From: Sabulibacter ruber
Lineage (GTDB): Bacteria > Bacteroidota > Bacteroidia > Cytophagales > Hymenobacteraceae
Length of the DNA: 64,000 nt
Direction: 5' to 3'
Assembly: GCF_017355955.1 (NCBI RefSeq)
Contig: NZ_JAFFID010000001.1
Location: 992,001 to 1,056,000 of the forward strand
In this document: in pieces, positions 41,406-62,734 of the stretch
Layout of the letters: each line of letters starts with the position of its first letter
Numbering within the stretch: the first letter of the stretch is position 1
Made by a program: the position numbers and the translations under genes
Notes under the pieces: model-generated
Told to the model about the DNA's origin: nothing
Databases searched by the model: none
The model's input: only the letters and a program-made list of their open reading frames with translations

Positions 41406-41416
41406 TTCACATAGAT

Positions 41417-41887
41417 TTAGCGGACGGTTACGTGTTGATTAGGTTCTACAAAAGCCGCCACGCGGCAACGGAGAGGAACGGTAAGTTCCCACTGTGGCAC
41501 ACCGCTGCCAGATGGATAGGTTTCCCGGTCTGAATGAGGCGTAACTGGAATTATTTTTACCAGGCTATCTGGTCCTGATTGCTGCCAACTGGAAAGGACA
41601 ATCTGTCTGAGCTTCTTTGTTTCAGAAGTGCCCGGGAACATGGCGTTGGCCTTTTGCAGATCATATTTCCCTTCTGTTTTGAACCGATCAGCTGGAATTT
41701 GGCTGTAGGCTAACAGGTTGAAATCGTTTATACCGGGCAGTTCGCTGGCTTGCACCACATAGGCACCTTTGGCCAACCGGCCAGTACGGTAACCCAGCCG
41801 TCGTTCCACTTCGGATAAGCTTTGGCCGGCTATATACTTGAGCTGCGTGAAGCAGCCTTTTGGGTGAATAGTTTCTCCTACGTGCAT
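41417..41887 (-). CDS. Unrecognised protein between immunity gene and tssH
   Basis: 156 residues, no signal peptide or membrane segment. It has a LysM-like look at the start (MHVGETIHPKGCFTQLKYIAGQSLSEVERRLG) and then ASELPGINDFNLLAYSQIPADRFK. The second half (QIVLSSWQQSGPDSLVKIIPVTPHSD) ends in a beta-rich VPQWELTVPLRCRVAAFVEPNQHVTVR. I recognise no family. It is GC-richer than the Rhs tip and immunity genes, and only 11 nt separate it from tssH, so it belongs to the core T6SS operon and not to the exchangeable toxin cassette. Could be a baseplate accessory or effector adaptor. Confidence 0.6.
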   Translation of the reverse strand: MHVGETIHPKGCFTQLKYIAGQSLSEVERRLGYRTGRLAKGAYVVQASELPGINDFNLLAYSQIPADRFKTEGKYDLQKANAMFPGTSETKKLRQIVLSSWQQSGPDSLVKIIPVTPHSDRETYPSGSGVPQWELTVPLRCRVAAFVEPNQHVTVR

Positions 41888-42014
41888 GGTGATAAGGAAT
41901 AAAAGATTTTATTTATGCTTCTTAAGTAAAATTCATAACATGAGTTTATGCTGTTGAAGTACAAGAGCAGACTTGCTCTTGTTTAACTTGAATATATTCA
42001 AAATGAGAGTCTGA

Positions 42015-42272
42015 CTAACTTTTTTGAATAATTATTGGGGATGAACCTTCCTCCAAGGAGTTGTAATCATCTAAATGAATGTGATAGCCAGCTGGAATGG
42101 TATCCTGCGCTATATTCATAAAATGATTCGCCATAGAAATTAATCCCTCTTTGTTTGCTTTAAAAAAGATTGTATCTTTTTCCACTTTGATTTCAATTTC
42201 GAATCCTTTTACCCATTTATATTTAAAACCTTCATTTGGGTCATATTCTGGAACTTCAAGTTTTATTTCCAT
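42015..42272 (-). CDS. Probable Imm32-like immunity protein for the Rhs toxin
   Basis: 85 residues, AT-rich, cytoplasmic. The sequence FKANKEGLISMANHFMNIAQDTIPAGYHIHLDDYNSLEEGS matches the pattern I know for the Imm32 family (EGL...LA..L..LA....P.G.H.HLD). It lies 7 nt after the stop of the Rhs toxin gene on the same strand, the standard place for a cognate immunity gene. It should neutralise the Rhs C-terminal domain by direct binding. Family assignment is from memory of the motif. Confidence 0.7.
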   Translation of the reverse strand: MEIKLEVPEYDPNEGFKYKWVKGFEIEIKVEKDTIFFKANKEGLISMANHFMNIAQDTIPAGYHIHLDDYNSLEEGSSPIIIQKS

Positions 42273-42279
42273 TGATTTT

Positions 42280-46251: not shown

Positions 46252-47555
46252 ACCACGTGAACTTTAGAGGTGGGCACCTTGCTTTGCCAGTTTGGACCGG
46301 CCAAGGCATTCAGTTTCTCTTCCAGAGCCAGGTATTGGGTTTTGTAACCCATCTGGTACGCCAAATCCAACAAGGCTTTGCCCAAGTAAGGCAAGGTGGA
46401 ATTCAACCTGATGTTTTCCTCCAGCAGTTCTGCCGCAGCCAAAGCCTCTTTCTCCGCTTTAAAAGCTTCCTCCCATAAGCTGCATTTCTCCAGACAATAG
46501 CCCTGCATCCGTTTTGCCTCCATTTTCTGGAAATGGTCGCCTAATTGGCTGGCCAGATCGGCAGCCAGTGCATATGTTTTGGCAGCAGTCGGGAATTCCT
46601 TTTGGCCTATCAGTACCGACCCTTTGTTGAAAAGGGACTGTACTGCCAGGATCAGGCCAACAGGATCTCCGGCTGCATGGGCCTTTTTGGCCAATGTGTA
46701 CCCCAACTCGTACCGCTGCAGGGCCTTGGGGAATTGGTTAAGTCCAATGTAAGCGGTAGCTACCAAACTGTGCACCGCCACCTCCATGGTTACCCAGCCC
46801 TGTTCACGAGCAAGTAGTAAGGGAACAGTTTCCAGACGTTGTACTTCTGAAAGGTTCTTATTTGCAGCAGCTTGGGAGAGTTCCAGAAAAGCTTTCCGGA
46901 ATTTCACACCCGGATCGGCAGGGTTACCTACGGAAGCAAGTTGGCGCATAGCTTCCGGCATATCCAAGTTTAACACAGAGGTAATCACTTGATCCGGAAA
47001 TTTCTCTGCCACCTTCGTTAACAGTTCCTCATGCTGGTATTCTATGATCAAAATCCGAAGATTGACAGGCATAGGGTTCTCCAGCAGTTCAGTTACCCAC
47101 TTGTTCAATTTGCGGGAAGCAGAAACAGGGAAAAGTACCGGTACCACCAGTTCTGCCCCAGGCACTTGTGCAGCTAACTGCTCTAACAGCTTTAGGAAAT
47201 AGCCGGCTTTTCTTTCCTGTTCTTCATCTGCTTGATTTGTTTCCCAGGAAATAGTAATTCCTTCTTTCGCTAACTCTTCCTGATCTGCTTTTACTAGTTG
47301 GTGAAGTTCCTGCACCAGCTGATTCGTGTATTCTTCGGGCTGCACGAACTCTGAATAAAAAGGCAGGAAAAAGTCTGGGCAAGGGTTCTCCTCCTGATAA
47401 GAAGTCTCCAGGAAAGCCTCCACCATCTTTTTTTCATCTGAGCGAATCAGCCAACGGCAAACCAGGGCATCAGGGAGCTCCCTAAACTGCTCCCACAGCT
47501 CCTCCATTTTCCTAATCCGGTCAGTGATGGGGTTAGAAGATTCAGATGAATTCAT
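46248..47555 (-). CDS. TPR-containing protein, probable Rhs effector chaperone
   Basis: 435 residues from the ATG at 47555 (MNSSESSNPITDRIRKMEELW); an upstream TTG start at 47582 is possible but weaker. The first ~230 residues are mixed alpha/beta with ELVVPVLFPVSASRKLNKWV. The rest is helical, with tetratricopeptide-like pairs such as AVHSLVATAYIGLNQFPKALQRYELGYTLA and GSVLIGQKEFPTAAKTYALAADLA. It is directly coupled to the Rhs gene (4-nt overlap), where effector-loading chaperones/adaptors usually sit. The assignment as chaperone is from context, not from a recognised family. Confidence 0.72.
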   Translation of the reverse strand: MNSSESSNPITDRIRKMEELWEQFRELPDALVCRWLIRSDEKKMVEAFLETSYQEENPCPDFFLPFYSEFVQPEEYTNQLVQELHQLVKADQEELAKEGITISWETNQADEEQERKAGYFLKLLEQLAAQVPGAELVVPVLFPVSASRKLNKWVTELLENPMPVNLRILIIEYQHEELLTKVAEKFPDQVITSVLNLDMPEAMRQLASVGNPADPGVKFRKAFLELSQAAANKNLSEVQRLETVPLLLAREQGWVTMEVAVHSLVATAYIGLNQFPKALQRYELGYTLAKKAHAAGDPVGLILAVQSLFNKGSVLIGQKEFPTAAKTYALAADLASQLGDHFQKMEAKRMQGYCLEKCSLWEEAFKAEKEALAAAELLEENIRLNSTLPYLGKALLDLAYQMGYKTQYLALEEKLNALAGPNWQSKVPTSKVHVV

Positions 47556-47668
47556 TTCACATAAGGTGAACGTTTCAGGCAATCATCATTCCGGTCAGAT
47601 ATGCTTCACAGGTGAAATCAGTAAACTGGCGTTATTATGCTATGGCATTCACATTAGTCTGGATAGGC

Positions 47669-48517
47669 TTACTCTCCACCCAGCATGCCCAACATATTAT
47701 TATTTGAGTTCCTGATTCCTGCTAAATGCGACTTCAAGAACTTGACTCGTTCCAATATTTTATTTTTCATTCTCAGGTTGTTATCGCCCCTCCTTTGAAT
47801 ACCATTGCAGTCTTCTTCAATACCGGTAAGCACCACAGAAATCTGGTCAAGGTTCTCCTCCAGGGCCATGGCATTTTCTCTTATTTGCTGTAATTCTGCG
47901 CTGCTGCTGCCAGACCTGGAGGCAAGCTGGGCCTCCAGGCGCTCAATGGTCCTTTCTGCTCTATTAAGATCTCTTTCCAGCATGGCTACCTGGGCGGAAC
48001 TACCACCTCCGCCTCCGCCGCCTCCACCCCCACTTGCCCCTGCACCAGCACCGCCCATTCCGGGAGATGCGTTTCTGGCTACCTCTTCCCTCACCTTACC
48101 TCTGAATTCATCGCTGATGCGGTTGTAGCTTTTGTAATTAGCCTCCAGGAAAGAGAGGATGTCATGGTTGGCCCGGTACAAGGCAGTGTCTGTGTAGTAC
48201 AGCTTTTTCATGCGGTCTACTCCCTGCTCAAAACTGAACCGCATTTGGTCATATTTCAATTGATCAATAGGCTCATAGGCAAAGGCCGGTTTCAGCTTTT
48301 GGGTTTCGTTTAAGGTGACCGCCAACTGGGAAAGTTCAGCCAGCGCCTGGTCCCGCTTCCTGAGCTGTTCTACCAGTTGTTCGTTTTCCTTTTGCTCCAC
48401 CTTTCCCATTTCCAGGCCATTAATCAGAATGAGAACTGGAATTGCCACTGATAAAATGTAAAGACCAGCGAAACGCCATTTTGCATTTGCTCTCTCCTTG
48501 CGGTTAACAACTTGCAT
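47669..48517 (-). CDS. tssO: T6SS-iii membrane component TssO
   Basis: 282 residues. A cytoplasmic basic start (NRKERANAKWRFAG) leads into one transmembrane helix (~16-34), then a long periplasmic region of coiled coils (EQKENEQLVEQLRKRDQALAELSQ and VAMLERDLNRAERTIERLEAQL). Between them is a flexible Gly/Ala segment with ten consecutive Gly (163-172). This fits TssO, one of the Bacteroidetes-specific proteins that replace the TssJLM membrane complex. Gene order (downstream of tssK and tssN) agrees. The poly-Gly hinge is unusual. Confidence 0.8.
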   Translation of the reverse strand: MQVVNRKERANAKWRFAGLYILSVAIPVLILINGLEMGKVEQKENEQLVEQLRKRDQALAELSQLAVTLNETQKLKPAFAYEPIDQLKYDQMRFSFEQGVDRMKKLYYTDTALYRANHDILSFLEANYKSYNRISDEFRGKVREEVARNASPGMGGAGAGASGGGGGGGGGGSSAQVAMLERDLNRAERTIERLEAQLASRSGSSSAELQQIRENAMALEENLDQISVVLTGIEEDCNGIQRRGDNNLRMKNKILERVKFLKSHLAGIRNSNNNMLGMLGGE

Positions 48518-48592
48518 GTTGATGACTATTTATTTGATGGATTGTTCAAATGGTGGTTTTTAGCCTCTTTTTGAGAAATTGAGGCAAAAGGA

Positions 48593-49756
48593 TCAGAATA
48601 TCCGTTCTGCTTTTCTGGGTTCAACAGGCGGTGGTGGGGTCTCTTTCACGGGGGCTTCCACTACAACCGATGCCGGTTGACGTTGTATGGGAGCGAACTG
48701 GTTGTGATCATACAGGTCAAAAGTGCGGTTGTTGTAATTGTACTTGCTTACCTCTGACAGAAATAAATCAAGCCGGTCCAGAAAGTGCATGACTTTATCA
48801 AAAGAGGCTAAAATAGCTGCGTGTTGGGGTTCCGTCCTCTCCAGGTGGGTGGCTGATTCTAGGACCTCGGGCTTGTATTGGTTGATGATCTCCGCCCTGA
48901 ACGGCCTATCTAACTGGAAACGGATAGAGCGGGCCAGGTCCTTGAAATACACCACCGTGAACAGCGGGGCATACAGCGGCAACACATACCGGTAGTAACT
49001 AAGGGAAGACACAATGGGAGCCACCATCTTTTCTGTCAGTCCCATGGCTTCGTCGGCTAATTCATTCCGGGACTCCACCCCCACCCGGTTCACCAGATTA
49101 GAATAGTGTTGCAGCAAACCGTTCAGGAGTTCTTCCCCGTTGGCATGGAGGCGGAGCAAACCGGCAAAGGCACTGAGCGTAGTGCAGGGTGGAATGTACT
49201 TAGCAGAAGAAGTTAGTATGTCAACCCTTCCCTCCCGCACTTCCAGTTCGCTAATCTTCAGGAAGTTCTCCTGCACCAGGGCAAACGCATCATGGGGTTT
49301 TACTGCCAGTTCGTATTTTGGGGAGACCGCCACATGCCGGGGCGGATTATTTTGCGCAAACTCGCCGGCGCCTACTCTGACCGCAGGGTCTACGTGGAGG
49401 TAAACATCGTACCGGCCTGGCTCCAGCACGGAAAAGGCAACAGAGGGTAGCTGCGCCGGAAACTTCCTGCGCTCATGGTTGGCTTCTGTGATCTCAACGC
49501 GCTGTCCGGCTGGGGTCAAGGCACGACATTCCTTTAAAATCAGCACGTTGTTCACGTAATCGTAAACCAGTTTAGGGTAATTGTCAATTTCGGGGTGATT
49601 GGTGGGCAGCAAGCCGTAGGCATAGTCATTCAACCTTGCAGCCTGCGCGTCCCGCACGGCATCTACGGCGGCGTTCTCCAGGGAGATAAAATCATGGCTG
49701 GAGATTTTCATCCCGTTTACCCAGTTGACAGGAAAACTTTTGATATCTGGAAGCAT
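48593..49756 (-). CDS. tssK: T6SS baseplate protein TssK
   Basis: 387 residues. TssK trimers connect the baseplate to the membrane complex. The N-terminal MLPDIKSFPVNWVNGMKISSHDFISLENA is the iii-type version of the usual VxWxEGMxLxPQHF start. The shoulder and C-terminal domains follow, with YHxDPAVRVGAGEF and a helical stalk (NELADEAMGLTEKMVAPIVSSLSYYRY). The C-terminal ~25 residues are Pro-rich (PPPPVEPRKAERIF). It sits between tssN and tssO on the same strand. Confidence 0.85.
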   Translation of the reverse strand: MLPDIKSFPVNWVNGMKISSHDFISLENAAVDAVRDAQAARLNDYAYGLLPTNHPEIDNYPKLVYDYVNNVLILKECRALTPAGQRVEITEANHERRKFPAQLPSVAFSVLEPGRYDVYLHVDPAVRVGAGEFAQNNPPRHVAVSPKYELAVKPHDAFALVQENFLKISELEVREGRVDILTSSAKYIPPCTTLSAFAGLLRLHANGEELLNGLLQHYSNLVNRVGVESRNELADEAMGLTEKMVAPIVSSLSYYRYVLPLYAPLFTVVYFKDLARSIRFQLDRPFRAEIINQYKPEVLESATHLERTEPQHAAILASFDKVMHFLDRLDLFLSEVSKYNYNNRTFDLYDHNQFAPIQRQPASVVVEAPVKETPPPPVEPRKAERIF

Positions 49757-49838
49757 GGTTGAATGGAGTAAAGGCTTGTTCTGATAATTGACTAAATGCC
49801 CAAATGCAATTCCTTCGCCCTGCCGGGCTCCCGTTGTT

Positions 49839-50735
49839 CTATTCCACCATCATTCGTTTGGCCACAATAAAATCTCCGTTTCTCAGGTGATTGTTGGCAA
49901 TGGATTCATTGGGGTCCAGGTAAGGGTTCTGGCGCCACCACGTGCGGGGTTTCCAGAGGAGAAAAGGCACGTAAAAAAGCCACCAAAACTTAGGCCCTTC
50001 CTCTTCATAGCCTAGCTCCTGCACCGGCACGCTAGGGTTCTTTTTATGGTATTCCCGAAGGGCCAGGCGGTAAATCATCCTGAGTTCCTGGTCACGGGGA
50101 ATGACAATGCTGAAACGGGCTTTCTTACTGAACCATCTGCCTTCGTTCTGCAGCGAATCTGCCACCTGAAACCCCACAGACACCATATTTTCCCGCTTCC
50201 ATTGGGTTTCATCAAACGGAAAAACTTCATAGAACCATTTCTTGTCAAAGTCTTTTTCAGGAATCTGCCGGAGAAAATCATAGGCTTTGGTGAGGAGAAA
50301 TGGCAAAGGAAAAATCAGCAGAAAACCCCACATGGAGGCGGCCACGTCCCATTTTTTAAGGAGAAAACCAAAGCACATCAGGCAAATCAGGGACATTACG
50401 GAGGCAAGCGAGAAAGTGAATCCCGCCTCCTTCAGAAAAGAATCTTTGCTCCAGTTGTCTGCATCACGCCGGGCCCACAACAAACTGTAAAGCTTTTCCA
50501 GGTGGAAGTACCCGGCTATCAGGAAAATCACCAGGCCGATGACAAAGATGTAGAAGATGGGCAGTTGGGCCATCTCGTAAAGCAGCCACATAATAGCTCC
50601 TGTCATTAAAGATACAAAGGCAAACACCCCGGCATACACCCATGTTTTTTTATCCAGTTTCCCATCATTCAAGAGAAAAAGGACCAACGAAACGGCCAAC
50701 ACCAGAATCACGGAGAGAATGAACAGCAGCAGCAT
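49839..50735 (-). CDS. tssN: T6SS-iii membrane component TssN
   Basis: 298 residues. Six hydrophobic helices in the first ~160 residues (MLLLFILSVILVLAVSLVLF; VYAGVFAFVSLMTGAIMWLL; FYIFVIGLVIFLIAGYF; and a later group) are followed by a cytoplasmic C-terminal domain with FDETQWKRENMVSVGFQVADSLQ and PRTWWRQNPYLDPNESIANNHLRNGD. This matches TssN, a Bacteroidetes-only T6SS membrane protein. It starts 3 nt after tssG stops. It probably substitutes, with TssO, for TssL/TssM. Confidence 0.85.
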   Translation of the reverse strand: MLLLFILSVILVLAVSLVLFLLNDGKLDKKTWVYAGVFAFVSLMTGAIMWLLYEMAQLPIFYIFVIGLVIFLIAGYFHLEKLYSLLWARRDADNWSKDSFLKEAGFTFSLASVMSLICLMCFGFLLKKWDVAASMWGFLLIFPLPFLLTKAYDFLRQIPEKDFDKKWFYEVFPFDETQWKRENMVSVGFQVADSLQNEGRWFSKKARFSIVIPRDQELRMIYRLALREYHKKNPSVPVQELGYEEEGPKFWWLFYVPFLLWKPRTWWRQNPYLDPNESIANNHLRNGDFIVAKRMMVE

Positions 50736-50738
50736 AGG

Positions 50739-51665
50739 TCAGTTGATTTTAGTGGTATATCCCAGGATGTTCAGGTTGGCATCATCAGAGTCCTCTAATA
50801 AGAAGGACCAGGCAGAACCGGCTATTTCCAGGGTAAAATCCACGGTTTCGCCGGCCGGGAGCAAATAAGGCAGCAGGTGCTCCTCCAAAAGCACTCTCTG
50901 CTGGCCTCCAGGAAGCCATTGCTCCACTTCTTCCGGTAGCACATCGGCAACGGTGAGGTGCAGTGCCCTGATGCCGTCTGTAAATGAATCTCCCAGCAGA
51001 AAATCCTCCCCCAGCAGACCTTCTCCAAGAGGAGTTTGCAAATGAGCCGGAATTGGGATGCCCAGGTTTCTGGCTGGCGTTATGGCTATGTTTTTCTGAA
51101 AAAAAGCGGAAAGCAACGATTCTGTTTCTGCCCCTTTTCCTACAAAACGGCTGATAAACGGCAGCACCAGGGCCAGCATCTGCCCCTGACTTTCCGCTAC
51201 ACCTTTCAGGTCATCCAGCCCGTATATTCTTGCCAGGCAGGAGGCAAGGTCCATTGAACTATTGCGCTCTGCTTTTTCTAGTTCCACCCGGGTTTGATAC
51301 AGTACTTCCTCAAAAGGCAGGAAGAACCTTCTTGCCGATTGTTCCTGAAGCGCCAGGTGCTGGGCTCTTTCTACTTCGTCTTCATAGGTCTCTTCGGGCC
51401 GGAAGAAAAGCATCTCAGGAAGGGTATCAAAAAGGCTCTCGCGGTTAATGTCCAGGTAAACCAGCTCTTTTCCTTTGCCATTGAAAACGGAGCCAGTCAC
51501 GTTCAGCACTTCTCTTCCGCCTCTCCTGTTGACATGCCCCAACGGACGGACTAATATTTGGTCTGTTTCTTCTAATTCTTCCTGCGTCTCTAACAGGCTG
51601 CATGCCAATGCCTCCACATTCATGTCAAAGGGCAGGTGCGCCAGAAGGTTCTTGAGGTTATGCAT
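50739..51665 (-). CDS. tssG: T6SS baseplate wedge protein TssG
   Basis: 308 residues. TssG joins TssE-TssF2-TssG wedges around the VgrG spike. Family-like features are the start NLLAHLPFDMNVEALACSLL, the ...RRFFLPFEEVLYQTRVELEKAE helix, and a beta-rich C terminus with GEGLLGEDFLLGDSFTDGIRALHLTVADVLPEEVEQWLPGG. It overlaps tssF by 8 nt, and tssN follows 3 nt later. Confidence 0.85.
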   Translation of the reverse strand: MHNLKNLLAHLPFDMNVEALACSLLETQEELEETDQILVRPLGHVNRRGGREVLNVTGSVFNGKGKELVYLDINRESLFDTLPEMLFFRPEETYEDEVERAQHLALQEQSARRFFLPFEEVLYQTRVELEKAERNSSMDLASCLARIYGLDDLKGVAESQGQMLALVLPFISRFVGKGAETESLLSAFFQKNIAITPARNLGIPIPAHLQTPLGEGLLGEDFLLGDSFTDGIRALHLTVADVLPEEVEQWLPGGQQRVLLEEHLLPYLLPAGETVDFTLEIAGSAWSFLLEDSDDANLNILGYTTKIN

Positions 51666-53517
51666 GGCCGTTAAGGGTTAAGGTGACGGCATACGGAATC
51701 ACACCACTTGATTTTTGGTTGAGCAGGTACTCCAACTCTCGGCAGGCTCCTTCCCAGGTATGGTCCTCAGGATTATCTACCTGAAGAAGCACCTCAGAGA
51801 CTCTGTTGATGCCCCCTTGCGGAGTGGGATCAACCCTGAAACCAGGCTTTACCTCCACCTGCCGCAATTTCTCGCCTACATAGTGGTGGCAGAAGTACTC
51901 CACATCTTTGGAAGTCACTAACTGCTCTTTTTTAAGCAAGTTGTGGCGTAAAAGGGCATAATACTCGGTTTCATTGGGCATGTCCTTTCCTCCTGTCAGA
52001 GGCGTAATGAGCGTGGTTCCTTCTTTCCGGATGCTGGGGTCTGGTGGGTCACAAATCAGGCCCTTGGGAACGGGAATTCGGTTCGCTTTGGCCCCGTCGG
52101 TGGTCCAATAGGAAATCCGGGCCCGGATGCCGCCTTTCAGGTTCTCTCCAGGGTGCAGGAAGAAGTAAATATTGTTTTCGGGGTTAAGTTCCTGGGGCTC
52201 GTCCCGGAGAATTTTCTCCCCGATGAGCAAATGCAGCTCTTCAATAGAGATTTTGTCCCCAATTCTTTCCAGCACTTCCCGGTAGCGGTGTTCCTCCCGG
52301 AAAAGACCGAGCAAATACGACAGCCTGCTCCAGGCGTTGTAGTTGTCTGTTCTTCCCACCCCTCCGTACCGCACGCTGTAGGCTGGGGTGCGACTGCCTT
52401 TGAACTTACTGAAGGGCAGTAAGGGAATTACCTCCCGGTTCTGCAGATTCTCCACCTGGTGCACGCCTAAGAACTGTTTTTCAGGGGTAATGCATAAAAC
52501 ATCCACCACGGGGCGGTTCAGAAAGGTATCGGCATCGTCTTTCACGTGCAGCTGGCGGTTCACTATCGGCAAGATGTTGGTGGCACACCGGAAATTCTTC
52601 TCAAATTCAAACACCCTAACCGGATACGGCAACTGAATCTCCAGCCAGAAGATGTTGTCTTCTACCGGTGAAAGTGCCTGCGCCTGCTCTTCAAGGGTTG
52701 GGGTATCTGTGTGGTTCTCGCGCAGCCAGGAGACTACCACCTCGCTTATGTTCCGCTTCAGAAGCGCATTTTCAATGTACTCCTGGGTGGTGAAGAAATA
52801 GCTTTGGTAGGTGTCTGCTATCTGTTGGAGCGGCTGGAAACCCATATCGTACTGCCGTTCCAGCGGTCCTTTACCTTGCCGGAATCCTCTGGTTTTCTTC
52901 ACCGGCTGGCCGTTTATCTTCCAGCTTCCCTCGGCCACGGCATTCAGGAACAAAAGCTGGTTGTTCTGGCCCAGCAGGTTGAAGTAAAACAGGATATTGT
53001 CAAAAGAGATAATGGGTTTGGGCGCCTCAAAGCCCAGCAGAATCTTGGAGACGTGGGTGTACTGGCCGCTGGGCTTTTCTTTCCCGGCTTTGTATTCAAA
53101 GATTAGCCCGTCTGAGCCAACTACTTTCAGTTCACTGTTAAGGAGATGGCAGTTGAAGGCGGGAGTAAAGTAAAAGGTGCCTGCCTCGGTATCGCAGCGG
53201 AACTGGGTGGTTTCAGAGAGATAGGCGGAACTGCCGGTGGGCGTCACTGAGGCCAGTCCCCGCGCGGGAGAGGCCAAGTGAGCTTCGTCGGGCAGAATCA
53301 GCTCGGCCAATTTCTTCACTACCCTGCGCTCTGAGGAATCAAGGGCATCAAAGATATTCTTCACTTCAGAGGCACAGGCACCCACCAGCAGGTGAACCAG
53401 AGGATCAAAATCACGGCCGTTGTAATCCCATTCCTCTCCTAGGCGGGCATAAAGGTTCTCTTTTGCCCACTCCAGCATGTCCTGCTTAATGTCTTCAGCT
53501 GCCCTGGTATTTTTCAT
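51658..53517 (-). CDS. tssF: T6SS baseplate wedge protein TssF
   Basis: 619 residues, full TssF length. Visible marks are an N-terminal RLGEEWDYNGRDFDPLVHLLVGACASEVKNIFDALDSSERRVVKKLAELILPDEAHLASPARGLASVTPTG, matching the family's D..V.RLLE..A.L.A....... P....P.....A pattern, and a C-terminal PxGGINRVSEVLLQV. TssF forms most of the T6SS baseplate wedge. It overlaps tssE by 4 nt and tssG by 8 nt. Confidence 0.9.
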   Translation of the reverse strand: MKNTRAAEDIKQDMLEWAKENLYARLGEEWDYNGRDFDPLVHLLVGACASEVKNIFDALDSSERRVVKKLAELILPDEAHLASPARGLASVTPTGSSAYLSETTQFRCDTEAGTFYFTPAFNCHLLNSELKVVGSDGLIFEYKAGKEKPSGQYTHVSKILLGFEAPKPIISFDNILFYFNLLGQNNQLLFLNAVAEGSWKINGQPVKKTRGFRQGKGPLERQYDMGFQPLQQIADTYQSYFFTTQEYIENALLKRNISEVVVSWLRENHTDTPTLEEQAQALSPVEDNIFWLEIQLPYPVRVFEFEKNFRCATNILPIVNRQLHVKDDADTFLNRPVVDVLCITPEKQFLGVHQVENLQNREVIPLLPFSKFKGSRTPAYSVRYGGVGRTDNYNAWSRLSYLLGLFREEHRYREVLERIGDKISIEELHLLIGEKILRDEPQELNPENNIYFFLHPGENLKGGIRARISYWTTDGAKANRIPVPKGLICDPPDPSIRKEGTTLITPLTGGKDMPNETEYYALLRHNLLKKEQLVTSKDVEYFCHHYVGEKLRQVEVKPGFRVDPTPQGGINRVSEVLLQVDNPEDHTWEGACRELEYLLNQKSSGVIPYAVTLTLNGHA

Positions 53518-53945
53518 TTCAGGTAGATGGATTCCAGATGTTGAAAAGAATCTCGTCCGTTGATCACGCCCAGCACATTTACGTCAAAGGTGATGCGCCC
53601 TCCTCTTTGGCCTTGCTCCAGTTCCTCGGGCTTGGTCAGTTTCACCTTAACTTCTATGTCCTGCAGGTCTAGCCGGGGTTCATATTTTCTGAGGAGCAAC
53701 CTAAGGTTTGTCAAAAGGCACTCCTTCAATTCATTCTCCAGCTTCTTCTCCCCTTTCCGTTTGTCTGGCAACCGGTAGTGGTGTTTATTGAGCCAACTGC
53801 CAAAAAGAGGCGCAAAACGGAATTTGCCCGGCATGGTCTGCAGCATCAGCCTGAGATGCTGCCGCACAGATTCCTCTGCATCGGTTTTTCGGAAAGCTTT
53901 TCCGGCCGCTCCTGAGGGTTCAAAAGGAAGAGAATAAAATGCCAT
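53514..53945 (-). CDS. tssE: T6SS baseplate protein TssE (gp25-like)
   Basis: 143 residues. gp25-like lysozyme-fold protein without hydrolase activity that nucleates sheath polymerisation on the baseplate. It contains the conserved helix ESVRQHLRLMLQTMPGKFRFAPLFGSWLNKHHY, and a C-terminal YEPRLDLQDIEVKVKL with the typical EPR motif. It sits between vgrG (34 nt upstream of it) and tssF (4-nt overlap). Confidence 0.9.
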   Translation of the reverse strand: MAFYSLPFEPSGAAGKAFRKTDAEESVRQHLRLMLQTMPGKFRFAPLFGSWLNKHHYRLPDKRKGEKKLENELKECLLTNLRLLLRKYEPRLDLQDIEVKVKLTKPEELEQGQRGGRITFDVNVLGVINGRDSFQHLESIYLK

Positions 53946-53979
53946 GCCTTGTTTGCTTTCAACGGGTTGGTCAATTTTC

Positions 53980-55740
53980 TCAATTCAGCTTGATCATACC
54001 GCCGGTGATGTTCGTGGCAATAGCCCCGTCCATGTTCATCGTCGCTCCTTTAATGGTGTTGGTGGAAGAAGCATCTATGGTAATGGTGGGCGAATTGGCC
54101 TTGAAATCTTTATCAGCAGTGGACTCAATGGAGGGAGCTTTCAGACTGATTTTACTGTCGGCCTGCAAAACAATCTCCTTCGCGTGAATAGTAATGGTGC
54201 CCGGGGAGCTTATATTAAGGTCATTCCCTTTACTTTCAACGGTAATCTGTTCCTGTGCAGTAATGGTCAGTTTACCCGTAGAAGCCGTTACCTCTACATC
54301 TTTGGGGCCGGTGATGCCAAAGCTTTCCTTCCCTTGCTCGTCGTTCATCAGGATGGTGTTTCCGCCACGGGTCTTGAGGGCTTTCAGGTGGTTGCCGCTG
54401 TTGTGGTTTTCTGGTTTGGCTTCTGCGTTGTACAGTCCTGTGAGGGCGTAAGGCCGGTCTGGGTTGTTATGCTCAAAAGCGACTACTACCTGGTCTCCAA
54501 TCTCGGGGATTACGTAAAACCCTTTATCCTTACCAGAATAGGGCGAGGCTACCCGAATCCAGGGTGATTTCTGGTCGGTGCCGCGCTGCCAGAGGAACTG
54601 AACCCTGATTCGTCCCAAAGCATCGGGGTCGTTGGTTTCCACCACATCGGCCAACTGCATCTCGCAGAATGGTGGCTCTAGGGAACTGTTGAGTGGTGGT
54701 ATCTCCACTTCGGCGGGTACCGCTTCAAAGGTGTTGATGTAGTTATCGCCCTCGCTTCCGAAAGAGTGTTCCAGATGGGTGATGATAAACGTTCCATAAT
54801 CCTCTGTGTTACCCACCAGCTCACTTCTTTCGTCCAGTAATTGAATATAGCTCCCCACCTTCAAAGCCGGCTCAGTGGAAGATCCGCTCAGGATTACCAT
54901 CTCAGAAACCTGCGCCTGCTCTCGCAGAATCTTCAGTTGCTCCAAATCCTGATCACTCAAAGACTGGTGGATGGGCATGAGCATGGTGTGGCTGTACAGA
55001 TCGTTCCGGGATTTGTCAAAGGCTATTTTGGTGAAATCGTTGAGCTTGCCGTTATAGGCGGCTTCTTTGCTCAGGTACTTATGCTTCTTGTAATCATAGC
55101 CGGCTAACTTGAAATTCACCGGAGAGGCCTTGATGGCCAGATCAAAGTGCAGCAGGTTTTTATCCTGGTACAGCTTTACCGTATTGTCATTCTGCTGGGG
55201 CGGTTTAGAGGTAAAGAAAATCTCTTCGCCGTCAAAGAAAAACCACTCTCCGTAGCTGGTAGCCATGCGAGCCAGAAACTGGAACGTGCTTTCTTTGTAT
55301 TGTACTACATATTTGATTTTCTCCTTTGCTTTGGGGGAGATGTGCACATTCTTGAACTTATCTGAATATTGATTGATGAGGGTATCAGCAATCTGTTTCA
55401 AGGTCTGTTCATAAAACGAGATGGTATTAGGCCCTTCGTCCATTACCACTGTAGGGCTGCCCCCGGTAATGACCAGCTCGTTTTCTTGCCGCCGAACCCG
55501 GTTCAGGGAAACGCCCGTTACTACTCCTCTGCACTTATTCCCCTGGAGGGAGATCTCAACTGGTTTACCGAACAGATCTTTGGCTGTTTTACTCAGAATA
55601 CCTTTGAACTTGTCCAGAATATCTGTGAGCAGAATCCTTATCTCAAAAGAATGGTGCCATCCAAGCTCCTGCCGGATGTGAATGGTAGAATACCTTTGCG
55701 TAAAGTCCTCGCCGCCTATATTTACCCTGGCTTTTTCCAT
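53980..55740 (-). CDS. tssI: T6SS spike protein TssI (VgrG)
   Basis: 586 residues from the ATG at 55740 (MEKARVNIGGEDFTQRYSTIHI); the GTG at 55773 would add a His-rich leader. gp27-like modules cover ~1-370 with SFYEQTLKQIADTLINQYSDKF and ESTFQFLARMATSYGEWFFFDG. An OB-fold gp5 module has ADVVETNDPDALGRIRVQFLWQ, WIRVASPYSGKDKGFYVIPEIGDQVVVAFEHNNPDRPY, followed by a beta-helix of T/I/S repeats to the end (NMDGAIATNITGGMIKLN). No C-terminal effector extension is present, so toxins must arrive through PAAR or adaptor proteins. It lies 600 bp from hcp. Confidence 0.92.
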   Translation of the reverse strand: MEKARVNIGGEDFTQRYSTIHIRQELGWHHSFEIRILLTDILDKFKGILSKTAKDLFGKPVEISLQGNKCRGVVTGVSLNRVRRQENELVITGGSPTVVMDEGPNTISFYEQTLKQIADTLINQYSDKFKNVHISPKAKEKIKYVVQYKESTFQFLARMATSYGEWFFFDGEEIFFTSKPPQQNDNTVKLYQDKNLLHFDLAIKASPVNFKLAGYDYKKHKYLSKEAAYNGKLNDFTKIAFDKSRNDLYSHTMLMPIHQSLSDQDLEQLKILREQAQVSEMVILSGSSTEPALKVGSYIQLLDERSELVGNTEDYGTFIITHLEHSFGSEGDNYINTFEAVPAEVEIPPLNSSLEPPFCEMQLADVVETNDPDALGRIRVQFLWQRGTDQKSPWIRVASPYSGKDKGFYVIPEIGDQVVVAFEHNNPDRPYALTGLYNAEAKPENHNSGNHLKALKTRGGNTILMNDEQGKESFGITGPKDVEVTASTGKLTITAQEQITVESKGNDLNISSPGTITIHAKEIVLQADSKISLKAPSIESTADKDFKANSPTITIDASSTNTIKGATMNMDGAIATNITGGMIKLN

Positions 55741-56353
55741 GTTATGCAAATGATGGTGGGAGAAGATATTCACTCCCTTCTGCGTTCACTGGGTACCCTG
55801 TTCAATTCAATTTTCCTATTTGTCAAAGGGCAGGGAGAGTTGTTTGTTATTTCTGTGAACCGGAATCCTGGCCGCAACCTCCCCCCTCTTTTCCCGAATT
55901 CTGTTACCTTTAGCGCTTACTTCCTCCTTATTATGAAAGTCATGGAGAGTTCTTTCTTTCCAGGTCTTTTTGCTATTAAGATGGATTGAGCAGTAAGCGA
56001 CTACTCTAATAGAAACTTTCCTAGCCAAAAATTTCTATAAGCAGCCGCCTTTCAGTCCAGAGCCGGTGTACTCCAACCACCTTAATAAGGCTTAACTTAG
56101 CTTGGACATACCTTCAGTTCACTTTATAGGCTTGTCTTAAATTCAATAAAAAACCTTTGTCCATCATTGGACTACCCATGCGTAAGCCATCGGGTTGTTT
56201 TTGCCCTGATTTATGTAAATCTGCCTATAAACAAACTTCTGTTTTGGAAAGCAGAGCATTGCCTCCCCTCAAGATCCTACGGCAGGGTCGCCTTGGCAGG
56301 AAAGCCCTGCCGTAGGATACCAGAAGAGAATTCAATTAAATGCTGGCTGGTCT
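55741..56353. other. Intergenic region between hcp and vgrG, 613 bp
   Basis: No gene supported; the small ORFs at 55816-56028 (minus) and 56167-56379 (plus) have no coding features. A strong hairpin at 56274-56318 follows the hcp stop. It is the only long gap inside the T6SS core and splits tssB-C-D from tssI onward. Confidence 0.65.
56274..56318 (-). terminator. Strong hairpin downstream of hcp (attenuator or REP-like)
   Basis: Fourteen-base perfect stem ATCCTACGGCAGGG / CCCTGCCGTAGGAT with a 17-nt loop that contains a further GCC..GGC pairing. There is no T run on the minus strand, so it may stabilise the hcp transcript or attenuate read-through and not act as a classical terminator. Confidence 0.55.
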
Positions 56354-56761
56354 TTAAGAATGGCTTTCAGGCCAGATGAAGTCAAATTTTGCGTTTTCCA
56401 CCTCAATGGTTTCCGCCGAGATGGTGAACGTTTCTACCGTGTTGGAACTGGGTTTTTCCAGGTCAAAGGTTTCCTCGTACTCAATAATGTATGCGTTCTT
56501 AAATTTGATTGTTTTTAAGGCTTGTTTCTTTTGCTCGTCCTGATAGATGACAATTTCCCCATCCTTGCCTTTGTCCGGATCGCCCAACCAGGTAATAGCC
56601 GAGGCTTTATCATAGATGGAATCTTTGGTGACTGTTATTTCACCTTTGCGGATACGGGTAGCAGGTTTTCCATTGTCCTCTGTGTGGCGGTGAAAATGGT
56701 AACGAAGGTATTTCAAATCGCTTTTTTTACCATCAATGGTCATTAATGCATTGTTAGCCAT
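56354..56761 (-). CDS. tssD: T6SS tube protein TssD (Hcp)
   Basis: 135 residues, normal size for the Bacteroidetes TssD. It begins MANNALMTIDGKKSDLKYLRYHFHRHTEDNGKP, continues with a beta-barrel pattern (ASAITWLGDP..GEIVIYQDE) and ends FTISAETIEVENAKFDFIWP. Hexameric rings of TssD build the inner tube and can carry small effectors. It starts 37 nt after tssC and is followed by a strong hairpin, in line with high expression of the tube subunit. Confidence 0.93.
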   Translation of the reverse strand: MANNALMTIDGKKSDLKYLRYHFHRHTEDNGKPATRIRKGEITVTKDSIYDKASAITWLGDPDKGKDGEIVIYQDEQKKQALKTIKFKNAYIIEYEETFDLEKPSSNTVETFTISAETIEVENAKFDFIWPESHS

Positions 56762-56798
56762 ACAATTTGATTTTTATAGAGTGAAATAACAGATTGGA

Positions 56799-58109
56799 TT
56801 AATCTTCAATGGAGGATTCCGTAGCATTTTTGGAGACACCTATTTTATAGACGAACGTGCGGGTTGCCCACAGGGGAGTAATCTTGAAGTCAATGTCAAA
56901 CCGGTCTGGCTGATCGCGGTTACGGGCGAAATTGGTTACCTGCCCTTTCTCAATGATTTTGTTTTCGGCCAGGTCGTCCAGGAATTTCACCAGGCGCTTG
57001 TGCACTACGTTGGCCTTGTCGCGGTCCAGCAGTTCAAAGGTATATTTCCCCAGAAAGTGCTTCAGGGACTTATCAATCCAGTCAATGGTGCGGACCACGG
57101 CATAGTGTTTCAGCTCTAAGTTGGCGCCGTTGAATAGAGAAGTAGCTTCCCAGGGGCTGTCCTGCTGGTAGAAATCGGCCATGGGGTTAATGCCCAATTT
57201 AGAAAGCATACCCACCTCTATTTGGTTAGGCCTGAACCGGATGCCCGAGCTGTTTTTCACCTCCCCAAACTGAACCCCCGCGGCAGGCTGTGAGATCTTG
57301 GTGGCGTACAATTTACCGGCAATGGCCATGGCTACCGACCCGAACACGCCATCTTTCTCGGGCAGGTCTGGGTATTTCTCCCGCATCCTGATCCAGTTCC
57401 CGAACAAGACGGCATGGCTCCAGTACTTCTGTGGCCCCCCAATCTTCTCCCCTTCTGAACTGCTGCGGTACTTCACCATGGACTCCACGCTGGGGAAGTC
57501 TTTGTAGTCGGTCAGGAAAAGGACCTTGTTTTCGTCAGCAATGGTGGCATAGGTCTGGATGAGTTTTTCGCCCAGAAAATCAGGAATGACCATGAGCGAA
57601 TACACTTTGTCCTGATCAATGCGCAGGTGCGGATCTGAAAGGATTTCTTTCACCTTGGTGGTCACCGATTCATCATCTGGATCTTTCACCAGCTCCCGGT
57701 CCACGTTCAGGATAGTGACGTTCTTCAGGTTGTTGGGGCCGGCATTTTTGTAGAACAGGTCCAGCTCACGGTACGATTTTTCCAGAGGACGCGTCTTTTC
57801 CACAATGGTGGCCAGATTCTTTTTCCGCAGTTTCATGAACCTGCTGATCTTCTCATCGGCTTTGGCCTGCACTTCGGTGGCATCAGAACTGCTTTCCACC
57901 AAATCAATCAGATCGGCTACTAAGGCTTTGAGTTCACGCCGTTTCTCTTTAAAGGCTCCCTCCTCCAGGAACATGCTCCGGGTGTCTTCATCGGCTTCAG
58001 GCGCGAAATACTGAAGATCATCGTCAATGGTCTTGAAAAGCGCGCTGTATCCGGTTCTGATTACCTTGAGATCCTGTTTCCGTCTGTCATCCAGTACCTG
58101 TTTCTCCAT
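56799..58109 (-). CDS. tssC: T6SS sheath protein TssC
   Basis: 436 residues. Large sheath subunit, pairing with TssB. Typical stretches are KVYSLMVIPDFLGEKLIQTYATIADENKVLFLTDYKDFPSVESM, YWSHAVLFGNWIRMREKYPDLPEKDGVFGSVAMAIAGKLY and a C-terminal RFDIDFKITPLWATRTFVYKIG. Shorter than proteobacterial TssC (about 490-500), as is usual in subtype iii. It begins 29 nt after tssB. Confidence 0.92.
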   Translation of the reverse strand: MEKQVLDDRRKQDLKVIRTGYSALFKTIDDDLQYFAPEADEDTRSMFLEEGAFKEKRRELKALVADLIDLVESSSDATEVQAKADEKISRFMKLRKKNLATIVEKTRPLEKSYRELDLFYKNAGPNNLKNVTILNVDRELVKDPDDESVTTKVKEILSDPHLRIDQDKVYSLMVIPDFLGEKLIQTYATIADENKVLFLTDYKDFPSVESMVKYRSSSEGEKIGGPQKYWSHAVLFGNWIRMREKYPDLPEKDGVFGSVAMAIAGKLYATKISQPAAGVQFGEVKNSSGIRFRPNQIEVGMLSKLGINPMADFYQQDSPWEATSLFNGANLELKHYAVVRTIDWIDKSLKHFLGKYTFELLDRDKANVVHKRLVKFLDDLAENKIIEKGQVTNFARNRDQPDRFDIDFKITPLWATRTFVYKIGVSKNATESSIED

Positions 58110-58138
58110 TACTTTTCTGATTTTAGGTCTAAACTAGG

Positions 58139-58609
58139 TTAAGCCGATTCCAATTCTTCCTGAATGCTTCGCAGAATATCCAGGAAAGCGGCCTTTTTTT
58201 CGGGGTCTTTGATAATTTCCTGCAGCCGTTTGCTTCTTTCCAACTCGGCTTTGATCCGCTGAAACCTGTCTTCCTGGGCTCTCTGCTTCTGTAGAATTGG
58301 AATGCGCTTCTCTAAATCATCTGGCCTGAAAGATTTAAGATTGGTGTAGGAGATTTTAATTTCCTGGGTAGGCTCCTCTTCGTCACCGGTTTCAAGTTCC
58401 ACTTCCACGCTAGGCTTAGCAAAATCAAAGACTTTGCTAAGCGAAACAGTAGCTTCTTCAGGCAGAACCTCTGGATCATAGGGTCCTTCTGAATGCAAAC
58501 TGGTCAGTACCAAGGTTCTGTTGGTATTGATCTTAGTGAAACTCTGTTCTACCTCAATGGCTTGGATACCAATGGGCCCAGGTATATCCATGTCTAACTC
58601 TTCTGGCAT
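58139..58609 (-). CDS. tssB: T6SS sheath protein TssB
   Basis: 156 residues. The small sheath subunit: PEEATVSLSKVFDFAKPSVEVEL, then QEIKISYTNLKSFRPDDLEKRIPILQKQR, the canonical TssB core (x-F-x-P-D-x-L/V-x-x-I-P-x-L). Its helical C terminus (LQEIIKDPEKKAAFLDILRSI) is the conserved KxLxxALxxxL-like end. It is the first gene of the T6SS locus; about 530 bp upstream is gene-free and must hold the promoter. Confidence 0.92.
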   Translation of the reverse strand: MPEELDMDIPGPIGIQAIEVEQSFTKINTNRTLVLTSLHSEGPYDPEVLPEEATVSLSKVFDFAKPSVEVELETGDEEEPTQEIKISYTNLKSFRPDDLEKRIPILQKQRAQEDRFQRIKAELERSKRLQEIIKDPEKKAAFLDILRSIQEELESA

Positions 58610-59618: not shown

Positions 59619-59664
59619 AAAGGCGCGTGAGGGTGAGTGAATGCACTAACCAATACGCGCCTTT
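59619..59664 (+). terminator. Terminator after phage pseudogene
   Basis: AAAGGCGCGT / ACGCGCCTTT stem with TTTTTC exit; followed by a second CCCCTC/GGGG hairpin. Confidence 0.75.
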
Positions 59665-59707
59665 TTCATTTCCCCTCAGGGGGTGTTCCCCTTTTAAAAC
59701 AACAGAC

Positions 59708-60100
59708 ATGCAGAAACAACAGGTTATAAGCGATATAGAAGGCCTCCTTTGCCTCTATGGGGCATCCGTCAGCGTTGGCCGCGAACGTGGCCTGAGTGCC
59801 CATCAGACGCGCGTTTTGCTGGCGATCTACTACCTGCAAGAGATCCGGTTGAGGGGTGTGACCAGGAAGCTAACTGCAAGGCATACCTATTTATGGCTTT
59901 CAACCGTGAAGAACGCGGTCAGGTACTTTGTTGAGCGGGGATACATAAAGCCAATCACCGCCCCGAAATACTACCTACAGTTTACCGAGGTGGGATTGTC
60001 AATCTTGGCAGGCCTAATTCGGGATGCTGACAGGCAAAAGCGGATACTTCTAGATGGACCGGCTCCGATAAACAAGCCAAAGCCAAGGCCTAATATTTGA
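59708..60100 (+). CDS. Small winged-helix-like protein of the mobile remnant
   Basis: 130 residues from the ATG at 59708 (MQKQQVISDIEGLL). Helix-helix-wing pattern: SAHQTRVLLAIYYLQEIRLRGVTRKLTARHTYLWLSTVKNAVRYFVERGYIKPITAPKYYLQFTEVGLSILAGL. It resembles a MarR-type DNA-binding fold, with the wing in KYYLQFTEVG. Its C-terminal ~95 residues have a paralogue at 62450-62734. It is intact and is preceded by a terminator. It is likely a phage or conjugative-element regulator; the target is unknown. Confidence 0.65.
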   Translation: MQKQQVISDIEGLLCLYGASVSVGRERGLSAHQTRVLLAIYYLQEIRLRGVTRKLTARHTYLWLSTVKNAVRYFVERGYIKPITAPKYYLQFTEVGLSILAGLIRDADRQKRILLDGPAPINKPKPRPNI

Positions 60101-60112
60101 TGTGTGTTCCAA

Positions 60113-60733
60113 TTACCCGTTTTTGGTATGTCTAGATTCAGAGGCCTTAAAAATGTATTGATTCCAAGTCGTATGCTTCCCTTTATGATGTAGCCAAAAG
60201 AATAGTATTACAAAAGGGATTAGTAGGAGTGCACCGGAAAGGAACCAGAACCAGATGCTGTAACCTAGAAGTTGATGAGCTATGGAAGAGGTGAAAAATA
60301 CAGAGCCATAGAAGAAGCACCAGACGGATGGCTGAAATAAACGCTTCCAGGCAGCTATCATCCCATTGAATAGAAGGTATTCGTATTTCCCCGAGGCATC
60401 AGTAGCATCCTTTTGAGCCCTTACGAATTGATCAGCAATCACTAATTCTGAATTATCAGGATCAGGCTCTCTTTCACCTTTCCAGTGGTTGAGAGGCATA
60501 AGGAGCGAATCGTAGGCATACATGGTAGCAATTGAAAAGGCAATTGCTGCTAGAACTAAACAAAACCCTACTGAATATAAGGCTTTATTAAACCAATCCA
60601 AGCCGTCATCAGTGTAATTTGCTACCCGCATAGCAATGAGCCCGCTGGAAACAGACATAAAACCAGCGAAGAACTTGGCTACCTCCATCTTTGATTTAAT
60701 CTTTTCTCTTAGTTGCTCTATTTCGGTGGGCAT
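60113..60733 (-). CDS. Four-helix membrane protein, unknown
   Basis: 206 residues with four hydrophobic segments (~20-38, ~50-72, ~135-155, ~160-182), a basic N terminus (EQLREKIKSKMEVAKFF) and a cytoplasmic-looking mid loop with DPDNSELVIADQFVRAQKDATDASGKYEYLLFNGMIAAWKRLF. I do not recognise the family. Size and layout are reminiscent of small membrane proteins carried as defence or effector partners on mobile elements, but there is no motif to prove it. It is convergent with the winged-helix gene (12-nt gap) and AT-rich, like the next gene, with which it shares strand and position between the two winged-helix paralogues. Confidence 0.6.
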   Translation of the reverse strand: MPTEIEQLREKIKSKMEVAKFFAGFMSVSSGLIAMRVANYTDDGLDWFNKALYSVGFCLVLAAIAFSIATMYAYDSLLMPLNHWKGEREPDPDNSELVIADQFVRAQKDATDASGKYEYLLFNGMIAAWKRLFQPSVWCFFYGSVFFTSSIAHQLLGYSIWFWFLSGALLLIPFVILFFWLHHKGKHTTWNQYIFKASESRHTKNG

Positions 60734-61108: not shown

Positions 61109-62398
61109 TCATTTAGGGTAAATTTTTGCAATAAACACTTTGTCAATATTTGATAATACAGTATTTAAACCACTACCCACTCCATCAAGCGTTAGTTCTG
61201 AAGGTATTTGAAACATCATTACCGACTTCAAATCACATTCCTTTTTGATGGGATAATCTGATGAAGACCACTTTCTAAAAAATGTATCGTCTATTCTCTC
61301 CGTCGTAAGCCCCTGCTGTTGGCAGTACTGATAGACTTTATCTTTATTCCATTTGATGGCACAATTTGGGTTATTCTGCTCTTGCTGAAGCCCCAATGTG
61401 AAGCCAAATTCTCTTAAAATCACATTTCGTTCGAAATCTTCTATCTCAGTTTTATCTTTCACAGAACCCAATGACATTGTTGGGCTGTTCTTAGGTATTG
61501 CTAATGAAGCAGTGCCTAGATATGACCAATTTAAATCTTTCTGTTGAAAAGTTATTCTTACATCGGAGTTGTCTCTATTGTTTATAAACTGAAACTTTAA
61601 ATTGGCATAATCTGTCCATTGCTGTGCTATTTGCCTTGCTTTGCTTCTTTGGGTTGGAGTGCCATCTAGAAAGAATACCTTGATTACTGCACCACTTTTC
61701 CAAAGCTTCGACGAAATAGAGCCAGTACTAGTCCTGAATCTTCCTGGGTTCTGTTCTTTCTCTTCATTAAGTGCTTGTTCCTGACTTGGCGTTAGTCTTT
61801 TTATGGTAGCTAGAACAACAATAGCTGTGTCTTTTGCTAAATTGATTTGACTTAAAGCTTTATTGGCTTTCCGTAAAGCGATGGATGATTGAGTATGTAA
61901 AGAGTTGATTTCTGCGGTGGCGTTATCTTTGATAAACTTTATTGATCTTACTAAAGAATCGTTACGTTGTTTTATGTTATTTCTAGTTTTATCTATCTCT
62001 GATAGTGCGGCTAAAGAATTGAATTGAGCCTCCTTTACACTGTCTCGTATGGAATATATAATCTTTTGTAGTGAGTCAATCCTCGAAATTGCACCAGCCA
62101 TTTTTTCATTACCAATTTTTAAATTGCTATTTGCCTCGTTAACATCTTTTACAGTGTCTTTTAAATCCACACCGTACAAAACAATCCCTACTGTGATAAA
62201 AATTGCCAAAATAGATAATGCAAACTTTCCAAATCTTATTAAGTCCTTATCTAAGACATACGTAATGTTCTTGTTATCTGATTCAGCAACTTTTGTCTCT
62301 GTTTCGGGATTTATTTGCAGCAACATTGATTTACAATGCTTGCACTTTATTGCATCATCTTGTATAGTTTCTCTACAGAAAGGACATGATTTTAACAT
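61109..62398 (-). CDS. Zinc ribbon-TM-coiled coil protein with degenerate astacin/matrixin-like domain
   Basis: 429 residues. The N terminus has a zinc ribbon (CPFCRETIQDDAIKCKHC, ~5-22), a transmembrane helix (~54-74), and a long coiled coil (~80-215). The C-terminal ~200 residues match a ZnMc metallopeptidase fold: WKSGAVIKVFFLDGT, QQWTDYANLKFQFI, DVRITF, WSYLGTASLAI, a helix at 327-341 and a Met-turn-like SVMMF (Met394). In active enzymes the helix reads HExxHxxGxxHE; here it is REFGFTLGLQQEQ, with Arg329, Phe333 and Gln339 replacing all three zinc ligands, while Glu330 and Gly336 remain. It should not bind catalytic zinc, so it is a pseudoprotease, perhaps a sensor or binding domain. AT-rich, inside a mobile remnant. 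Confidence 0.7.
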   Translation of the reverse strand: MLKSCPFCRETIQDDAIKCKHCKSMLLQINPETETKVAESDNKNITYVLDKDLIRFGKFALSILAIFITVGIVLYGVDLKDTVKDVNEANSNLKIGNEKMAGAISRIDSLQKIIYSIRDSVKEAQFNSLAALSEIDKTRNNIKQRNDSLVRSIKFIKDNATAEINSLHTQSSIALRKANKALSQINLAKDTAIVVLATIKRLTPSQEQALNEEKEQNPGRFRTSTGSISSKLWKSGAVIKVFFLDGTPTQRSKARQIAQQWTDYANLKFQFINNRDNSDVRITFQQKDLNWSYLGTASLAIPKNSPTMSLGSVKDKTEIEDFERNVILREFGFTLGLQQEQNNPNCAIKWNKDKVYQYCQQQGLTTERIDDTFFRKWSSSDYPIKKECDLKSVMMFQIPSELTLDGVGSGLNTVLSNIDKVFIAKIYPK

Positions 62399-62449: not shown

Positions 62450-62734
62450 CGCACAACTATTCAATACCTCCATCACATGCATACTAAAGGGGGACGCCGT
62501 AACCTGGTAGCCAACCGCACCTACCTGTGGCATTCATCGATCACAAATGCGGTAAACATGTTCGTGGAGATGGCTTACCTCAAACCGGTAATGGCTCCCC
62601 GCTATTTTCTGCACTTCACAGAAAAAGGATTGGCCGTTGTGGCAGAGCTGGAGTGCAACTTCGCCAAGAATGCCAGGCTGCTGCTGAATGGCCCGGCTCC
62701 GTTGAACATGCCTGCTAAACGATCACAGAGCTAA
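62450..62734 (+). pseudogene. 5'-truncated paralogue of the winged-helix gene
   Basis: From 62450 the frame reads TIQYLHHMHTKGGRRNLVANRTYLW...NAVNMFVEMAYLKPVMAPRYFLHFTEKGLAVVAEL...LLLNGPAPLNMP. It aligns end to end with AIYYLQEIRLRG-VTRKLTARHTYLW...GPAPINKP of the protein at 59708-60100. Homology stops at an in-frame TGA (62447-62449), so about the first 35-50 residues are missing. An internal ATG (62477) could give an 85-residue product, but it would lack the first helices. Confidence 0.7.

Follow-up and report, generated by a model that had tools for sequence, protein, structure and literature searches.

Can a gene whose product has lost every zinc-holding residue of a protease be kept for some other purpose, or is it a copy in decay? 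This question is raised by a locus in a 64,000-nucleotide stretch of the genome of the soil-type bacterium Sabulibacter ruber, referred to here as the window, for which an earlier note made from the sequence had proposed a membrane-anchored pseudometalloprotease under selection for a non-catalytic role.

Reading frame and domain layout

We found that the gene (61109..62398, minus strand, as are all of its parts given below) encodes a protein of 429 aa, here P0001, in an uninterrupted ORF from ATG to stop, with no stop or frameshift in its 429 codons. The intact ORF claimed earlier is therefore confirmed, and the strand, which the earlier note did not give, is minus. The proposed front end of zinc ribbon, transmembrane (TM) helix and coiled coil is also present. 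The N-terminal zinc ribbon (residues 5-22, 62333..62386) carries the CxxC...CxxC pairs CPFC...CKHC, with weak Zn_ribbon/DZR and clearer PHROG matches, and is followed by a single TM helix at about residues 56-77 (62168..62233; hydropathy peak at 59-77, model helix at 52-74) and by a long helix at residues 79-199 (61802..62164), which is modelled as one continuous helix and is a probable coiled coil. Positively charged residues ahead of the TM helix suggest an N-in/C-out topology. Residues 228-429 (61112..61717) form an astacin domain (M12A, myroilysin-like) devoid of His, as seen by phmmer, fold match and His count. It contains the former zinc-binding helix REFGFTLGLQQEQ (residues 329-341, 61376..61414), aligned to 58 intact HExxHxxGxxHE motifs, and the aligned Met-turn SVMMF (residues 392-396, 61211..61225; SIMHY in astacins), in which the Met is retained and the Tyr ligand is gone. 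A scan for promoters and terminators returned no more than were found in shuffles, and an Rfam search gave no match.

Family and fold

Next, we investigated the family to which the domain belongs. In a phmmer search against PDB, the bacterial astacin myroilysin (M12A) matched residues 228-429 with E=1e-39. Pfam gave sub-threshold matches only, among which a Filament match was rejected as ribbon and coiled-coil similarity, and a partial NCBIfam match to NF050131 (beta-glucuronidase AbsR1 by name; E=4e-17) fell far short of the cut-off for that family. An AlphaFold2 model, for which the input was an alignment of P0001 with 12 homologous proteins from viral contigs, had a mean pLDDT of 76 overall; within the domain, most blocks of ten residues exceeded 88. 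The best Foldseek match of the modelled domain was myroilysin 5zjk (TM 0.93 by target length, rmsd 1.6 A), with animal astacins, matrixins and serralysins ranked after it. The ZnMc-type fold is thus borne out in the model, and the earlier reading of a ZnMc-like domain of M10/M12 type, right as to fold class, can be sharpened to M12A, myroilysin-like; both fold and sequence similarity place P0001 in the M12A astacin family by descent.

Compared with myroilysin and other bacterial M12A astacins (5zjk, 5czw, 5gwd), P0001 has the common fold, about 36% identity across the whole domain, and the same Met in the Met-turn, as well as both Glu residues (general base and family-specific), but lacks all four zinc ligands. 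Furthermore, bacterial M12A astacins carry a signal peptide and a pro-segment, whereas P0001 is tethered and has an N-terminal zinc ribbon and coiled coil.

Active site residues

We aligned 60 astacin-type domains, which came from two viral contigs and from the genomes that were searched. In P0001 the motif HExxHxxGxxHE reads REFGFTLGLQQE and SIMHY reads SVMMF; alignment to the remaining 59 domains places R329, F333 and Q339 at the positions of the three ligand His, and F396 at that of the ligand Tyr. The earlier description of the helix and of SVMMF, with all zinc ligands replaced, agrees with these four substitutions (R, F, Q, F). SVMMF does stand in place of SIMHY, but the residue of SIMHY that binds zinc is the Tyr and not the His (PMC9848320), so that the Met-turn reading holds for the replacement and fails for its His as a ligand. 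Not every catalytic residue is gone, since P0001 retains E330, the general base, and E340, which is specific to the family.

The HExxHxxGxxHE motif is intact in 58 of the 60 aligned domains, with S in place of G in L038 and L041, and these 58 also have the Tyr of the Met-turn wherever that stretch could be aligned; the exceptions are P0001 and one relative from a genome of the same family, G110. The three His and the Glu are likewise retained in 10 other distinct domains from viral contigs (L077 with an extra residue ahead of the third His) and in 10 further plasmid domains. Ligand loss as in P0001 is thus unique among the 60 aligned domains and the added phage-contig and plasmid domains, and among the sequences searched no clade with R/F/Q substitutions turned up, P0001 being the sole such sequence. 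The domain of P0001 has 0 His, against 3-12 in the others, and contains Cys 346, 359 and 388, whereas the median relative has none; these cysteines would be compatible with a periplasmic disulphide.

P0001 accordingly has neither the HExxHxxGxxHE site nor the SIMHY with Tyr ligand of an M12A peptidase. Zinc binding, and hence metallopeptidase catalysis, is predicted from the sequence to have been lost. With the fold retained in the model, the catalytic residues lost apart from the general base Glu, and the gene intact, P0001 is what is called a pseudopeptidase. The reading as a membrane-anchored pseudometalloprotease is sustained by ligand loss, intact frame, the fold in a confident model, and the TM helix. 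That P0001 is still an enzyme, by way of another metal site or of a metal-free mechanism in which E330 and E340 take part, is hardly credible. It would account for both retained glutamates and for the three new cysteines, but none of the ligands is replaced by His, Asp or Cys at the site, and metzincin catalysis requires a zinc-bound water.

Conservation pattern and neutral simulation

We then examined whether the changes resemble those of a gene no longer under selection. P0001 retains 13 of the 16 other columns that are conserved in at least 90% of active domains or, with the catalytic Glu included, 14 of 17, as against 0 of the 4 ligand columns (one-sided exact p=0.006). The retained fraction of 0.81 is at the low end for active relatives, only 2 of the 58 being lower, and a profile built from active relatives still gives the domain a score of 217 bits. 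The near-invariant residues also changed are G289L, N309S and W364L, which could be early relaxation. The ligand codons, among them AGA for R329 and TTC for F333, are together at least 7 base changes away from His and Tyr codons by codon count.

In a neutral simulation, five active homologues were mutated until all four ligand codons had changed (1500 runs, with independent sites, one ti/tv value, and all ligand loss placed after selection ended). By then, the medians stood at 0.81 substitutions per site and 8 stops within the domain, with 24% of the conserved columns preserved, and 0 of the 1500 runs combined zero stops with at least 81% of conserved columns, as P0001 does. Simple decay of the gene is therefore unlikely on sequence grounds, since neutrality would have left about 8 stops where P0001 has 0, and 24% of conserved columns where it has 81%. 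Ligand loss under selection followed by recent relaxation may be an alternative order of events.

That an astacin gene came in by horizontal transfer, lost its function and is now decaying, its frame surviving by chance, is accordingly an unlikely account of the locus. This account draws on the position in a low-GC island that carries a resolvase and broken genes, on the three other near-invariant residues changed, and on a search of the genus (15 other genomes) that gave no full-length relative. Against it stand the simulation, the at least 7 base changes at ligand codons without a stop or frameshift in 429 codons, and the profile score still reached by the domain. The earlier note had taken homologues with intact histidines as a sign that this copy is merely decaying; such homologues are indeed the rule (58 of 60), but the pattern observed in P0001 does not fit the simulated decay. 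Its proposal of selection for a non-catalytic role keeps indirect backing from the intact frame and from a pattern of change that misfits simple decay in both simulation and conserved columns.

Genomic setting

The gene lies between a type VI secretion system (T6SS) cluster and a conserved block starting near 68400. The putative T6SS cluster spans about 38889-58609 of the window, with genes named from sequence and gene order (TssB at 58139-58609, TssC at 56799, Hcp-like at 56354, VgrG at 53980 and ClpV at 38889). An Rhs-type protein is also encoded in this cluster, at 42280-46251. In the conserved block, a site-2-protease-like gene is present in 16 of 16 genomes of the genus, and the edge of the block was aligned in four of them. 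GC content between the cluster and the block is mostly 0.34-0.45, with excursions, versus 0.52-0.57 beyond, and the low-GC stretch holds a resolvase at 65542-66204 and broken genes; it looks like an acquired accessory region. The plus-strand gene 62477-62734 is a truncated relative of 59627-60100 (plus strand; 48% identical over 82 aa), so that the earlier description of a remnant full of broken genes holds for at least one broken neighbour. These two related genes flank the two minus-strand membrane-protein genes, possibly through a duplication with an insertion between its copies. The second membrane protein (60113..60733, minus strand; 206 aa, multi-pass by ORF and hydropathy) is encoded 375 bp downstream of the P0001 gene and has no homologue in 203 other genomes of the family. 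The DNA of the cassette found no match in plasmids.

Could P0001 be an accessory part of the neighbouring T6SS cluster, for example an adaptor or immunity protein? Its gene shares a strand with TssB and has its end 2.5 kb from it, and neither of the two occurs in the 15 further genomes of the genus that were searched. However, the intervening DNA contains broken genes and a shift in base composition, P0001 has no Tss family match, and its G110 relative is encoded in a hydrolase array, in the parts of which that were read no T6SS gene was recognised. We consider such a role very improbable.

A relative with the same layout

The nearest full-length relative, at 36% full-length identity, is the G110 protein (L049:1881-3026, minus strand), which has the same layout of zinc ribbon, TM helix, coiled coil and astacin domain. 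The front ends of the two proteins are 38% identical over 119 aa (E=2e-25). P0001 has lost its ligands, whereas in the G110 protein the zinc ligands are kept, the general base is Asp (HDFGHALGLIHE) and the Met-turn is SIMMY; in the 60-domain alignment its motif appears as HDFGHALGLIHEF, an HDxxH form (HDFGH). With ligands lost in one and HDFGH in the other, both known proteins with this layout deviate from the catalytic consensus and the other 58 domains do not, a two-for-two deviation with p=1/1770 if it were unrelated to layout, in a test chosen after the data had been seen. Common descent of the layout is suggested by front-end similarity rather than by the domain tree, in which the P0001 and G110 sequences are long branches near a node without resolution.

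In a search that covered 395 genomes from the class and 204 from the family, we found no third protein with this front end, the one match besides P0001 and G110 being a weak zinc-ribbon match. Close homologues of P0001 were likewise not found in genome contigs, viral contigs, plasmids or phages, where matches were at domain or zinc-ribbon level only.

The G110 gene is situated in a hydrolase array (L049, G110:C116, 1-18000) with three astacin-type proteins, one of which has the P0001 layout, and with intact astacins among them, together with trypsin-like, subtilisin-like, PLD and nuclease proteins, a GDSL lipase, an amidase-like protein and a DNA/RNA endonuclease fused to a glyoxalase domain. 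Separately, astacin-type proteases in which no signal peptide is obvious are encoded on the phage-like viral contigs L053, L077, L078, L080 and L081, in some cases close to virion-like genes. An astacin family is also conserved in Hymenobacter-family genomes (L006-L009, two of them plasmid records); its N-terminal region is unusual, and its members are annotated as hypothetical proteins.

Conflict systems and decoys

Intact astacin genes occur in conflict-type settings in Bradyrhizobium (L112), Thiodictyon (L118), Paenibacillus (L122) and L086. These settings hint at a role for bacterial M12A domains in conflict systems. P0001 itself could be an effector or decoy of such an immune-type system, its inactive domain acting as a dominant-negative or bait module, although we judge this improbable. 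Related domains adjoin caspase and trypsin-like genes, a TIR gene, or genes of S8 and trypsin type, and in one case there is a fusion to EAD1; inactive zincin-like metalloprotease effectors are reported from iSTAND2 systems (PMC8195603), and inactive effectors have been argued to work as decoys (PMC7159879). P0001, however, differs by its TM helix and likely periplasmic position, and among the neighbours examined we recognised no EAD, MoxR, vWA, STAND, caspase or TIR gene, and thus none of the partners that characterise iSTAND2 or MoxR-vWA systems. A PADLOC match to LmuB (E=7e-6, residues 3-212) falls on the ribbon and coiled coil, was rejected as similarity of these parts, and is uninformative here. 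A decoy or inhibitor of the cell's own active astacin is also unlikely, because the genome has no other recognisable astacin.

Proposed role and comparison with known systems

Overall, the P0001 gene is intact and probably selected, and its product is best explained as a membrane-tethered pseudopeptidase that most likely binds a ligand in the periplasm, as receptor or scaffold. This explanation draws on the sequence, the ligand loss, its rarity and the poor fit to decay that was observed, with the fold taken from a model. As every zinc-holding residue is lost, P0001 most likely binds rather than cuts. The N-terminal zinc ribbon would sit in the cytoplasm and the single TM helix would span the inner membrane, with the long coiled coil reaching into the periplasm and oligomerising the protein; the dead astacin domain would then bind a protein or peptide via its former substrate cleft or its surface, so that the whole may serve as a receptor or scaffold anchored in the membrane.

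The pseudopeptidases of animals have been thoroughly studied, while those of bacteria are mostly mentioned in passing. P0001 offers a clean, testable case of a protease fold reused for binding, in which all ligands are replaced, the fold is kept and the protein is tethered, and the G110 relative, with zinc ligands kept and general base altered, is its natural comparison. We found no source that names a membrane-tethered pseudoastacin layout; dead proteases of this kind are familiar from animals, and bacterial ones have also been recorded.

Among known systems, the iSTAND2 zincin-like effectors (e.g. WP_077000516.1, PMC8195603) are, like P0001, bacterial and have catalytically dead zincin domains; they belong to MoxR-vWA/iSTAND2 gene sets, none of which was recognised among the neighbours of the P0001 gene that were examined, and the two were compared by description only. 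Animal ADAM pseudopeptidases such as ADAM2, ADAM11, ADAM22 and ADAM23 (M12B) are, like P0001, single-pass proteins with the Met-turn kept and the ligands replaced (PMC11266112, Table 2), and indicate that a tethered metzincin can lose its ligands yet retain a binding role (PMC11266112). Given these two precedents, a dead bacterial zincin is not a new category. In contrast to the ADAMs, P0001 matches M12A rather than M12B, has the opposite chain order relative to the membrane, lacks the disintegrin and Cys-rich domains of that family (Pfam), and has no evolutionary tie to it beyond the metzincin clan. Only tentatively would we go further, to a periplasmic receptor or scaffold pseudoastacin that relays binding to its cytoplasmic zinc ribbon, belongs to a small lineage, with two proteins seen, in which this layout was accompanied by an active site repeatedly lost or altered, and may be a bacterial counterpart of the ADAM pseudopeptidases.
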